This document shows, in pieces, positions 1,374-6,309 of a DNA stretch of 64,000 bases. A model generated the notes under the pieces. That model was not told the DNA's origin. It made no database searches and saw only the letters and a list, made by a program, of their open reading frames with translations. Where the stretch lies: positions 425,001-489,000 of the forward strand of contig NZ_JAOWKY010000001.1 of NCBI RefSeq assembly GCF_025751435.1, written 5' to 3'. The position numbers and the translations under genes are program-made. Within the stretch, counting starts at the first letter, position 1. Each line of letters begins with the position of its first letter. The DNA comes from Albidovulum marisflavi. Lineage in GTDB: Bacteria > Pseudomonadota > Alphaproteobacteria > Rhodobacterales > Rhodobacteraceae.

Positions 1374-1450
1374 CGCGGGGTGGAGCAGCCCGGTAGCTCG
1401 TCAGGCTCATAACCTGAAGGTCGCAGGTTCAAATCCTGCCCCCGCAACCA
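1374..1450 (+). tRNA. tRNA-fMet (anticodon CAT)
   Basis: A 77-nt cloverleaf: acceptor CGCGGGG pairs with CCCCGC except for the C1-A72 mismatch diagnostic of initiator tRNA; the anticodon loop contains CTCATAA and the T-arm contains GGTTCAAATCC. The CCA is encoded. It follows 5S, as in many alphaproteobacterial rRNA operons. Its 3' half is the integration site of the adjacent island, and the last codons of the neighbouring serine recombinase are read antisense from it. Confidence 0.98.
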
Positions 1451-3047
1451 CTTTCACCGAACACGGATCAAGAGACTTGCCAGCCTCGGGCTGGGCGAGT
1501 TCGATCATGGCGGTGATTGCCCCCTCAAGCTCCACAGTCGTCCCGTCGCTCCGTTCGTGCACCGTGACGGCGTTGATCAGTCCGCGGATCGTATCCAACG
1601 CAGCCGTTCGGATTTCGGGGTCGGCCAACGTCTCGGCCAAGGCCATGACTTTGCGGCGATAGATCTCGCTCAGATTGGGGTGCAGCCGCACCGGCGAGGG
1701 TGCCGGGGCCGACAGTGCGGCATCGAGCTCTGCGCGGCGGTCTTCCAAAGAGGTGAGCTTCTCTTTCAATCCGGGCGTACGCAGGCCATCGGCAATCGCG
1801 TCGTAGAGGCCGTCGAGGCGGCGCATGACCGTGGCTTGCTCTGCCTCCAGGCGCGCGCGATCCGCGGCTTGAGTGGCGCGCCCCGCGTTGATCTCTTCGC
1901 CATAGGCCGTGATGAAGGCCGCAACGGCTTCCGGCTGCATCAGCCGCTGCCGCAAAAGGTCGAGCACCAGGCTTTCGAGATCCGCGCGCCGGTAGGAACG
2001 CTTCTGGGTGCAGGTTCCAAGCTTTCGGGCTGCCGAGCAGGCGAGATAGTCCCTGCCCACGGCGGCGAAGCCCCCGCCACAGCAACCGCAGCGCAGGAGA
2101 CCGGTAAGCAGATGCGTCTGACGACGCTGCTCCCAAAAACGTGTTGCCTTGATCGACTGGACCCTCGGGTCCGCATCGATCTCACCCTGCCGATGCTTGA
2201 CCCCATCCCAGAGGGCATCGTCGATGATGCGCAACTCGGGCACTTCGGTGGTGATCCACTCCTCCTTGGCGTTCAGACGCGAGACGCGCCGACCGGTCTC
2301 GGGGTCCTTCAGGTAACGCAGTCGGTTCCAGACCAGGCGCCCGATATAGAGCTCGTTGTTGAGGATGCCAGTGCCCCGGATCCTGTGGCCCCGAATGGCG
2401 GTATCCCGCCAGAGAACGCCCCGAGGCCCTGGGATCTTCTCCGAGTTCAGCCGTTTTGCGATGGCCTTGGGCGAATGCCCGGATGCGAACTCTCTGAAGA
2501 TGCGGCGGATGATGGCGGCCTCTTCCGGAATGATCCGCCTCTCCCCGGTCACAGGCATTCCGTCGGGCCCGAGACGACGCACGACCTCATAGCCATAGCT
2601 GTTGCCTCCGCCCGAGTGCCCGCTCTCCACACGGCCGCGCAGCCCGCGACGTGTCTTGGCGGCAAGATCCTTCAGGAAGAGCTGGTTCATCGTGCCCTTG
2701 AGCCCGACATGCAACTCGTTGATCTCGCCTTCAGCGAGCGTGACGATCTGCACAGCATGGAAGCTGAGGCGCTTGTAGAGGGTCGCGACATCCGCCTGAT
2801 CGCGGCTAAGGCGATCCAGGGCCTCCGCAATCACAATGTCGAACGAGCCACGACCAGCCTGGTCGAGGAGACTCTGCAGGCCGGGGCGCAACATGCTCGC
2901 CCCCGAAATCGCCATGTCGGAAAACACCTCCGCCACCGTCCAGCCTTCACGATCGGCGCGTTCCTTGCAGAGACGAACCTGATCCTCGATGGAGGCCTCG
3001 CGCTGCATCTGGGACGAGTAGCGGGCGTAGATGGCAACCCTGGGCAT
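1407..3047 (-). CDS. large serine recombinase (island integrase)
   Basis: A 546-aa site-specific recombinase of the large serine integrase type. An N-terminal resolvase domain (about 1-150) carries YARYS with the probable nucleophile Ser11 and the later segment EALDRLSRD. A recombinase domain follows (about 165-290, containing KAIAKRLNSEKIPGPRG), then a zinc ribbon (CGCC ... C) and a C-terminal coiled-coil-like stretch. ATG at 3047 overlaps the stop of the upstream tyrosine recombinase as TGATG; GTG at 3050 is a less likely alternative. The last residues (AGAGFEPATFRL) are encoded by the antisense strand of tRNA-fMet, so the C-terminus is supplied by the target site, as expected of an integrase gene abutting its own att site. 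It probably catalyses integration and excision at the tRNA. Confidence 0.93.
   Translation of the reverse strand: MPRVAIYARYSSQMQREASIEDQVRLCKERADREGWTVAEVFSDMAISGASMLRPGLQSLLDQAGRGSFDIVIAEALDRLSRDQADVATLYKRLSFHAVQIVTLAEGEINELHVGLKGTMNQLFLKDLAAKTRRGLRGRVESGHSGGGNSYGYEVVRRLGPDGMPVTGERRIIPEEAAIIRRIFREFASGHSPKAIAKRLNSEKIPGPRGVLWRDTAIRGHRIRGTGILNNELYIGRLVWNRLRYLKDPETGRRVSRLNAKEEWITTEVPELRIIDDALWDGVKHRQGEIDADPRVQSIKATRFWEQRRQTHLLTGLLRCGCCGGGFAAVGRDYLACSAARKLGTCTQKRSYRRADLESLVLDLLRQRLMQPEAVAAFITAYGEEINAGRATQAADRARLEAEQATVMRRLDGLYDAIADGLRTPGLKEKLTSLEDRRAELDAALSAPAPSPVRLHPNLSEIYRRKVMALAETLADPEIRTAALDTIRGLINAVTVHERSDGTTVELEGAITAMIELAQPEAGKSLDPCSVKVVAGAGFEPATFRL
1438..1450 (+). repeat. left attachment repeat (tRNA-fMet 3' end)
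   Basis: GCCCCCGCAACCA is the end of tRNA-fMet including CCA. The identical 13 bases recur at 27246-27258 in the same orientation. Flanking bases differ (T before and C after here, A before and A after there), so the shared core is exactly 13 bp. Confidence 0.8.
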
Positions 3048-4087
3048 CACTCGCCTCCCTTCAACCGTTTGACCAGCGCAGCATAGTCCCTGCCGGCCTC
3101 GATGGTCTGCGCGTGAATGTAGTGGCGTTCGGCGGTCCTGAAGCCTGAGTGCGCCAGAACCGGGCGGATCAGCCGCGCCGCCTCGGGAGACTCCCTCGCC
3201 AGCGTTGTTGCAGCCGCATCCCGGAAGAAATGCGGCGGGATCCTCTTGCCCGCATGCTCAAGGGTCACGTCACCGACCAATTTGCCGACGTAGTTCATGC
3301 CTATGATCTCACCCTTCTTGCCCACCCAAAGGATGTCGTGGTCCTGATCGCCGCGGGACATCAGCTTCGGACGCACTTCGCCGATGTATCGGCGCAGGAG
3401 CGGTTCGACCTGCTGCGGAACAACCGCTTCCCACGCCACGCCAGTCTTGGTCATCTCTTCGGCAAGCGAAATGAAGATCTCGCGCTCGCTCACGAAAATC
3501 GAGTGTCCGAGACGAAGCTCACAGAAGGACCTGCGCCGCATCGGCATCAAGGAGAGGAGCGCGACCATCGCGCCATCGCGACGCCGCAACATCCGCGAAA
3601 GCGGGGTCGTCGCTTCGTCTGCGAACGACCCTGCATGCCGAAGGCCGATCTCCAGCAAGATCTTGCTTGAGAGGATCCGTCCGCGCTTGCGAGCCGGATC
3701 ACCGTTCCCCGCCTCGCGTTTGAGCGCGCCGATCAGGCGAAGATGGCTATGCCAGTCGCCGTCAGGATCCACCGCGCGAAGGATCCGCACCACGCCCTGT
3801 ACGAAGGCGAGGCGCGTCATCGGACGAATGCTGGCCAGATCGCGCAGCCATGCCTGCAGACGTGGAAGCGTGGCACGCTCGACCGGAGCGAGCGCCAGTG
3901 CTTCCGGGGCATTCGCTTCGATCCAGCGCAACCAGCGACCGTAGCGCGGTTGCAGCGAGATGATCGTGGTCTCGCGCACATGGGCCAAGCCACCACAATC
4001 GTCCAGTGGCCCGCCTTTCGCTTGCAGGGCAGCCCACATGTTCCGGTCTGCAGAAGGCCATGCGTCCAGGGGCAGAACCAGGCTCAT
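3047..4087 (-). CDS. tyrosine recombinase (phage integrase family), second of the module
   Basis: A 346-aa protein with the tyrosine recombinase catalytic set in order: an arginine box MRRRSFCEL (R184-186), HFFR (H286, R289), LAHSG (H313) and the nucleophile in ERHYIH (Y323). The N-terminal half looks like a SAM-like core-binding domain. Its ATG overlaps the upstream recombinase stop by four bases (ATGA), and its own stop overlaps the serine recombinase start (TGATG), so the three proteins should be made in a fixed ratio. Coupled tyrosine recombinase sets are known (Tn554 TnpA/TnpB, RIT elements); pairing with a serine recombinase is unusual. All catalytic residues appear present. Confidence 0.9.
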   Translation of the reverse strand: MSLVLPLDAWPSADRNMWAALQAKGGPLDDCGGLAHVRETTIISLQPRYGRWLRWIEANAPEALALAPVERATLPRLQAWLRDLASIRPMTRLAFVQGVVRILRAVDPDGDWHSHLRLIGALKREAGNGDPARKRGRILSSKILLEIGLRHAGSFADEATTPLSRMLRRRDGAMVALLSLMPMRRRSFCELRLGHSIFVSEREIFISLAEEMTKTGVAWEAVVPQQVEPLLRRYIGEVRPKLMSRGDQDHDILWVGKKGEIIGMNYVGKLVGDVTLEHAGKRIPPHFFRDAAATTLARESPEAARLIRPVLAHSGFRTAERHYIHAQTIEAGRDYAALVKRLKGGE

Positions 4088-5790: not shown

Positions 5791-5954
5791 CGGGAACTGA
5801 CCTCATTGTCACGGTTGGTCTCGGGTGGACAGGGCGGGGCACACCGCCCGATTCGGGAAAAACATAGCATGGAAAGTTAGAAAATTACGGAGGCGGCCTC
5901 TTCCCGAATGACACCTAACACATTGACATAAATAGACATTGTTACCCGTGAAAC

Positions 5955-6164
5955 CTACCAGAGGCAGCGGGCGCGGTAGGCCGCATGTGCCGCGGGATCG
6001 ATGCGGACCAGACGCCCGCCAGGGCCCACTCGGCTGACCTCAAGAAGGCCCGCCGCGATCGCGCGACGCACCGTCTTCTCCGAGCACTGGTCGAGTTCGG
6101 CGACCTGCTTCACGGTCAGGAGTGGGCGAAGGGTCTCAGTCTTCGAGAACGTCTTGGGCGGCAT
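5955..6164 (-). CDS. excisionase-like helix-turn-helix protein
   Basis: A 69-aa protein with a single winged HTH of the HTH_17/MerR-excisionase type: the core LLTVKQVAELDQCSEKTVRR is followed by a short basic wing (VGPGGRLVRID). Such proteins bind att DNA and set recombination direction. The start is the ATG at 6164, preceded by GGAG seven bases upstream; a TTG codon one position earlier lacks this spacing. It lies directly upstream of the recombinase trio and overlaps the end of the 57-aa gene. Role as directionality factor is inferred from fold and position. Confidence 0.8.
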   Translation of the reverse strand: MPPKTFSKTETLRPLLTVKQVAELDQCSEKTVRRAIAAGLLEVSRVGPGGRLVRIDPAAHAAYRARCLW

Positions 6165-6309
6165 CAACGGGCTCCTTGGCTTCAGGAGCGCTCGCCGCCA
6201 GTTCCCGCGCGGTCTGCTGCGCCATGAGCTTGATCAGGCGCCCAAAGGCGGCCTCGATCTGCACCTCGGCGGCATCACTCTTGCAGGAAGGGGCGGGAAC
6301 GCGTGTCAT
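6136..6309 (-). CDS. 57-aa hypothetical protein preceding the excisionase
   Basis: A short open frame starting at ATG 6309 and ending 29 bases inside the HTH gene. The product is acidic and mostly helical (EVQIEAAFGRLIKLMAQQ in the middle) with no cysteine motif or membrane segment. Its 3' end supplies the ribosome-binding site of the HTH gene, which suggests translational coupling and argues that it is translated. No family is recognised. It may be an accessory factor of the recombination module. Confidence 0.55.
   Translation of the reverse strand: MTRVPAPSCKSDAAEVQIEAAFGRLIKLMAQQTARELAASAPEAKEPVDAAQDVLED

Follow-up and report, generated by a model that had tools for sequence, protein, structure and literature searches.

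Two tyrosine recombinases and a serine recombinase share a recurrent operon at tRNA-fMet, with a candidate site for each chemistry

Why would a genomic island keep site-specific recombinases of both chemistries in one operon, and what would each of them do? The question is raised by a 64,000-nucleotide stretch of the Albidovulum marisflavi genome (contig NZ_JAOWKY010000001.1, positions 425,001 to 489,000; hereafter the window), which starts with a ribosomal RNA operon, as read from the sequence, followed by a tRNA-fMet gene. An operon of overlapping genes, antisense to this tRNA gene and abutting it, encodes a helix-turn-helix (HTH) protein, two tyrosine recombinases (TR1 and TR2) and a large serine recombinase (SR). 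With middling confidence, we favor a division of labor in which one operon serves two recombination systems that differ in their sites: SR would move the island, and the TR1/TR2/HTH module would recombine a dyad of its own. The genes and the dyad are located as follows.

1374..1450, forward strand: tRNA-fMet gene (anticodon cat; ARAGORN), the integration target, whose final 13 nt (1438-1450) form the core repeat of the left attachment site (attL)
1407..3050, reverse strand: SR, large serine recombinase (Resolvase, Recombinase and Zn ribbon)
3047..4087, reverse strand: TR2, tyrosine recombinase of 346 amino acids (aa) (Phage_integrase); the solved chains closest to its catalytic domain are XerD/XerA/XerC-like
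4084..5790, reverse strand: TR1, tyrosine recombinase of 568 aa (Phage_integrase); helical N-terminal part ~1-336, catalytic domain ~347-565
5851..5909, no strand: dyad, candidate TR1/TR2 site, 59 bp, base-centered and nested; 55-bp core TCGGGA-N43-TCCCGA at 5853-5907
5955..6167, reverse strand: HTH gene (HTH_17 match, excisionase-like), which travels with the TR pair
6136..6309, reverse strand: open reading frame (ORF) of 57 aa overlapping the HTH gene, with relatives in part of the related loci

All five genes have the positions and domain types given in the initial annotation, and the two overlaps that it listed are present (ATGA at 4087-4084 and TGATG at 3049-3045); through co-translation, the three recombinases may be made in a fixed ratio. 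The retention of catalytic residues that it had noted extends to relatives: R184, K214, H286, R289, H313 and Y323 of TR2 are invariant in 23/23 rows and R405, K436, H506, R509, H533 and Y543 of TR1 in 36/36 rows, but in a separate TR1 set the second His is missing from 2 of 18 rows. SR displays the domain order of large serine integrases (Resolvase, Recombinase, Zn-ribbon), its serine motif YARYSS is visible by eye (without alignment), and its last codons run through the antisense tRNA-fMet, yielding the tail ...GAGFEPATFRL. The HTH protein scores just below the cut-off of the NCBIfam model 'excise'.

The gene set recurs in many alphaproteobacteria. Of the 62 loci from a GTDB scan, 55 have SR behind TR2 and on its strand (among the other 7, one ends inside TR2 and one ~1 kb past it), and in 49 all 3 genes were detected. 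TR2 and SR overlap in 32 of these 49 trio loci (SR start ambiguous in 3) and TR1 and TR2 in 24 (TR2 start ambiguous in 17, and a bad start guess surely behind the −298 of one of the 24). TR2 matches, some of them to other tyrosine recombinases, were found in 31 of 292 genomes of an order-wide sample; 28 loci from this sample comprise 18 with the TR genes followed by SR (some with a broken or cut-off TR1), 6 with the TR pair without SR (one ending at a contig edge), 1 remnant and 3 other tyrosine recombinases. Of the 18 trios, 16 have SR next to the tRNA-fMet end, and in the other two SR is broken or contig-cut. A class-wide sample produced matches at E ≤ 1e-40 in 12/385 genomes, window included, and SR is present in 7 of the 9 loci fetched from the 11 other genomes (L317 and L318 are near-copies). 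Two loci, both trios, were found on viral contigs, and phage records contained no TR1 match. Thus, the fixed gene order and the tRNA-fMet adjacency proposed for the set are recurrent, and the concern that the 3 genes might rarely co-occur elsewhere can be put aside.

The boundaries of the island, its attachment sites and an older neighbor are given below.

1451..27258, no strand: island of ~25.8 kb between attL and the right attachment site (attR), with 13-bp repeats; its cargo looks defensive
1438..1450, forward strand: attL core GCCCCCGCAACCA, repeat of the tRNA 3' end
27246..27258, forward strand: attR core GCCCCCGCAACCA, 13-bp copy of the tRNA 3' end
1451..1462, forward strand: near arm of the SR dyad, CTTTCACCGAAC (46-bp dyad analysis)
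27225..27236, forward strand: far arm of the SR dyad, GTTCGGTCAAGG (46-bp dyad analysis)
27176..28489, reverse strand: resident truncated SR belonging to an older element at this tRNA, with no Resolvase domain match

The tRNA gene at one end and the 13-bp tRNA fragment at the other mark a tDNA island. The resident SR ORF just right of attR has an odd tail as found, and when the flanks were joined by script, it gained the tail GAGFEPATFRL, identical to that of SR; hence, an older element was already at tRNA-fMet and the present island inserted between the two. The tail of the resident SR was replaced upon this insertion, and one tRNA site has been used repeatedly. A direct empty site was also sought in 2 genomes of the same genus (G099 and G106), in which other DNA adjoins tRNA-fMet, and the resident SR tail was used instead. 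Excision would give the SR of the circle another, longer C-terminal tail (1407-1450 joined with 27121-27258), a change between circular and integrated forms that could possibly act as a switch.

Around the 13-bp repeat, 9 islands, which were chosen from far-arm matches rather than representing the full set (in G066 and G103 the 2 ends are on different contigs), share a 46-bp dyad centered between 2 bases (23.5), with a mean complementarity of 0.546 at this center versus ≤0.322 at the other centers from 20 to 27. An even center of this kind fits the overlaps of serine recombinases, and an odd center those of tyrosine recombinases. In these 9 islands, center 23.5 agrees with the att dyad of a large serine integrase with its 2-bp overlap. 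In the trio loci L237 and L253, the near arm resembles those of other SR clades, and these are perhaps hybrids from tandem recombination; 2 differing far arms on one contig (G160:C5:9953 and 21276) suggest tandem islands.

Tyrosine enzymes are also present in the island, yet it is SR that abuts the tRNA gene and that occurs without the TR pair. SR relatives were found at E ≤ 1e-100 in 65 of the 292 order-sample genomes, 42 of which are outside the 31 with a TR2 match. A further 69 SR places were fetched, and none of these stretches contains a TR match (the absence means little in L145 and L146, with <50 bp upstream, and in L178, with 340 bp; L145 is probably the continuation of the SR that is broken in L054); in 43 of the 69, the SR ORF overlaps the antisense tRNA-fMet end. 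SRs whose last codons run through an antisense tRNA (fMet, Glu or Arg), with or without the TR pair, are seen in the window (1374-3050) and among L144-L212 and L271-L285. In a quick SR tree without bootstrap (77 rows, 15 of them trio; 8 rows that were too short, as well as L145 and L178, were left out), the trio label needs 6 changes, of which at least 4 are forced by well-supported branches, indicating that the TR pair has been joined or lost repeatedly. SR is therefore very probably the integrase of the island, to judge from sequence, and it seems independent of the TR pair. Both insertion of the island at the tRNA-fMet 3' end and its excision would be carried out by SR acting on the ~46-bp dyad, whose center falls between 2 bases at the border of the T-stem and acceptor stem of the tRNA.

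TR1 and TR2 with their candidate site, as the genes around them indicate, are an exchangeable module found beside SRs of fMet, Glu and Arg type, beside a third tyrosine integrase at least once, and alone on plasmids. Nine GTDB loci, from metagenome-assembled genomes of Beijerinckiaceae, Rhodoblastus, Rhizobium and a gammaproteobacterium, have a more distant SR ~1.1-1.3 kb behind TR2. This SR is located at tRNA-Glu (6 loci) or tRNA-Arg (3 loci), its stop codon being inside the antisense tRNA in 8 of the 9. Serine integrase domains are present in the 3 distant SRs that were checked. A gene of ~260 aa, gene X (L271, L272, L275, L284, L285 and L274), fills the TR2-SR gap in 5 of 6 such loci inspected, and 5 gene X products searched against Pfam had no match above cut-off. 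In Roseovarius aestuariivivens (L266:8077-9332), an HTH_17 protein and a third tyrosine integrase near tRNA-Arg take the place of SR; in another locus, the ORF behind the TR pair (L321:5182-6516) looks phage-integrase-like by eye. Across 41 loci (L219 and L220 being near-copies), TR1 and TR2 identities correlate with r = 0.96 (Spearman 0.81) and TR and SR identities with r = 0.78-0.80 (Spearman 0.61-0.66).

HTH-TR1-TR2 units without an annotated serine recombinase nearby are carried on plasmids; the absence refers to the annotation within the stretch, complemented by a profile search for L221, L222 and L224, and the statement covers the annotated loci, L302 being without annotation. One plasmid unit adjoins NikA/MobC, ParA and rep genes. 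SR-less TR pairs were also found on a 4.4-Mb contig (L058) and on the contigs of L033 and L273. Downstream of the pair in L058, repeated motifs look CRISPR-array-like by eye, and in L261 (8083-9441) an SR-less pair adjoins a type IV coupling protein gene. An HTH match is present in 38 of the 46 GTDB loci in which it could be assessed (TR1 N-terminus present and >700 nt upstream), and a match to the 57-aa ORF in 16. Accordingly, the initial view that an excisionase-like HTH gene and a 57-aa gene complete the set is right as to the recurrence of the HTH gene, but this gene follows the TR pair rather than SR: there is one match in the 69 SR-only stretches (at L144, a decayed trio by its look), yet the HTH gene is found upstream of SR-less pairs.

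The candidate site of the module lies in the gap between HTH and TR1, where a dyad is centered on a base, its outer boxes TCGGG/CCCGA being invariant in 31/31 aligned rows and its inner positions paired (2 of 33 rows were gapped and not counted). Mean complementarity over these rows is 0.561 at the center versus ≤0.392 at 16 neighboring centers. The strict dyad pattern occurs in 10 of the 292 order-sample genomes, at one place each and always upstream of TR1, and in none of the other 282; all 10 encode a TR2 of ≥45% identity, and in the eleventh such genome, G091, the locus is contig-cut. Of 62 regions upstream of TR1, 47 contain a dyad of the form TCG...CGA with a span of 55, compared to 1-9 regions for each of the other spans from 45 to 65 (the regions are those from loci with sufficient DNA upstream of TR1, with L220 dropped as a copy). 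In the Glu group and on Roseomonas plasmids, the boxes have other letters, with the span mostly kept. No second copy of the dyad was found in the window or in the 10 strict-pattern genomes, and wherever found, including L058 and L273, the dyad is whole, not split. Integrated islands contain it intact, and it is therefore not a junction with the chromosome.

Among solved chains, TR1 and TR2 are nearest to XerD, XerA and XerC-like proteins, and neither reaches an NCBIfam Xer cut-off. The predicted TR1 model (mean predicted local distance difference test score of 88.5) is partly like Cre, XerA, XerH and the integron integrase (TM-score over the query of 0.25-0.39), and its long helical N-terminal part could reach the outer boxes of the dyad. 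TR1, TR2 and HTH would thus form a XerC/XerD-like module that binds and recombines the base-centered dyad upstream of TR1. With one dyad per element, whole inside integrated islands, the reaction is likely to take place between 2 copies of the element, and might convert dimers, tandem arrays and multimeric circles into monomers. The SR-less HTH-TR1-TR2 units on plasmids fit multimer resolution, and the gene overlap would tie production of the TR pair to that of the integrase. The earlier suggestion that the tyrosine enzymes act at a different stage from SR is hence the one we favor, given their own internal site, with resolution as the best guess for that stage.

Several observations weigh against this division of labor. 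The strict pattern misses 11 of the 21 order-sample genomes with a TR pair (the distant pairs and G091), 15 of the 62 regions lack a TCG...CGA dyad at span 55, and so do 6 of the 9 class-sample loci by the same test. When TCG/CGA was not demanded, 37 of the 62 regions scored at span 55, 36 at 53 and 23 at 57, although the counts at 53 and 57 arise from the same center scoring with shifted arms. No break in identity was detected at the dyad in 16 close pairs (>80% on the right), that is, no trace of exchange there; in pairs with L241, identity falls further left of the dyad. On the side of SR, the near arm sits within the SR gene, and its likeness to the SR clade is therefore partly trivial. 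As for resolution, plasmids are not always SR-less, since an Azospirillum megaplasmid record (L223) carries the TR pair with SR pieces at tRNA-Met, and no relaxase or replication gene was identified among the cargo proteins scanned (part of the ORFs in the window), so that the need of the island for multimer resolution is not obvious. Furthermore, dif is given as 28 bp in PMC5357621, and the TR dyad is far longer.

The dyad also overlaps a TGCTA stretch, perhaps part of a promoter, and may be an operator of HTH or TR1, which leads to the main rival, in our estimate unlikely but deserving attention: the dyad would be an operator or promoter bound by HTH or by an autoregulating TR1, and TR1 and TR2 would act on another, unseen site. 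The position directly upstream of TR1, TGCTA between the boxes, TGTCC-like repeats around them and the frequent HTH gene upstream all suit such a role. Weighing against it, though still compatible with an operator, are the span, which is fixed at 55 bp across TR pairs of only 25-30% identity while the box letters change, and the paired inner positions; a scan of 5700-6500 with a plain sigma-70 consensus and for terminators found none, a result of little weight in this class of bacteria. Rather improbable is that TR1 and TR2 are a second integration or excision system, by which the element, or the system alone, would reach a different target. SR-less pairs (L058, L033, L273 and the plasmids) do exist, and Tn554 and SE elements join one large and one ordinary tyrosine recombinase (PMC10214605), but the dyad is unsplit even in L058 and L273 and has no second copy where one was sought.

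That TR1 and TR2 instead assist SR within one complex, as directionality factors or as architecture at att, is favored by the TR2/SR overlap in most trios and by the 6 changes of the trio label on the SR tree; the SR lineages that lie at tRNA-fMet with no TRs, the conserved TR catalytic residues and the presence of the module beside other integrases make it quite improbable. Finally, some TR1 genes are broken (L047 and L050) and some SRs are fragmented, as might be expected of chance neighbors or remnants, but with SR behind TR2 at the frequencies given above and the catalytic residues conserved, this explanation is barely credible.

Returning to the division of labor between SR and the TR module, both chemistries of site-specific recombination are found in one recurrent operon, each with a candidate site, which makes it testable. 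Islands and plasmids may share the TR pair as a portable cassette for multimer resolution. More broadly, and tentatively, we propose a widespread unrecognized class of elements in which swappable tRNA-targeting serine integrases (fMet, Glu and Arg) would serve entry and exit, and a portable TR pair with its 55-bp dyad, also serving plasmids, would keep the element monomeric. The initial idea of a distinct class of integrative element is upheld in that the gene set is recurrent and of fixed order, but has to be qualified, given that SR does not seem to need the TR pair and the module is exchangeable.

Among the cargo of the island are a methylase (1325 bits against the type III methylase model of PADLOC) and a ResIII protein, as well as a reverse transcriptase, several UvrD helicases and an ATPase that is HEC-04-like; at 17700-21848, the reverse transcriptase adjoins a UvrD helicase that bears a zinc ribbon of Top1 type.

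How does this set relate to known systems? Our literature search uncovered no description of a mixed serine-tyrosine set among the titles listed, subscription papers being mostly beyond reach. With Xer/dif, the module shares 2 different tyrosine recombinases, nearest to XerD/XerC/XerA, and one dyad per element. Its nested dyad of 55-59 bp differs from the ~28-31 bp of Xer sites and is not a ~28-bp site with a 6-8 bp center; moreover, TR1 has a long N-terminal part, and the module is carried by islands with a serine integrase. As in the difSL/XerS system (PMC5357621), the site lies beside its gene. In the Tn554 family, the gene order differs from that of the trio. Tn554 nevertheless resembles the trio in combining one large and one ordinary tyrosine recombinase, and is set apart, by the available description, in having no serine enzyme (PMC10214605). 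RIT elements also have 3 neighboring recombinase genes, but all 3 are tyrosine recombinases in the accessible parts of PMC8138268 and PMC10214605, with RitA containing 2 core-binding domains (PMC8138268), whereas the third enzyme here is a serine recombinase, which places the trio outside RIT. GInt (ginABCD) and SE elements likewise carry an operon of several recombinases at one end; as described in the accessible parts of PMC5385486 and PMC10214605, they encode tyrosine-type enzymes and small proteins only and have other targets, and by type of enzyme, the 2 tyrosine and one serine genes set the trio apart from the ginABC tyrosine integrases plus ginD. The statement that known trios use tyrosine enzymes only thus holds for the available descriptions of RIT, GInt, SE and Tn554.

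As for SR, the Islander paper of 2014 states that tRNA genes are not known targets of serine integrases, for which reason Islander considers tyrosine integrases only (PMC4383910); the loci described here appear to contradict that statement, and later work may already say so. Large serine integrases of the phiC31/Bxb1 type have the same domains as SR and an att dyad of ~46 bp centered between bases, but unlike them, SR abuts a tRNA gene and is coupled to a tyrosine pair.

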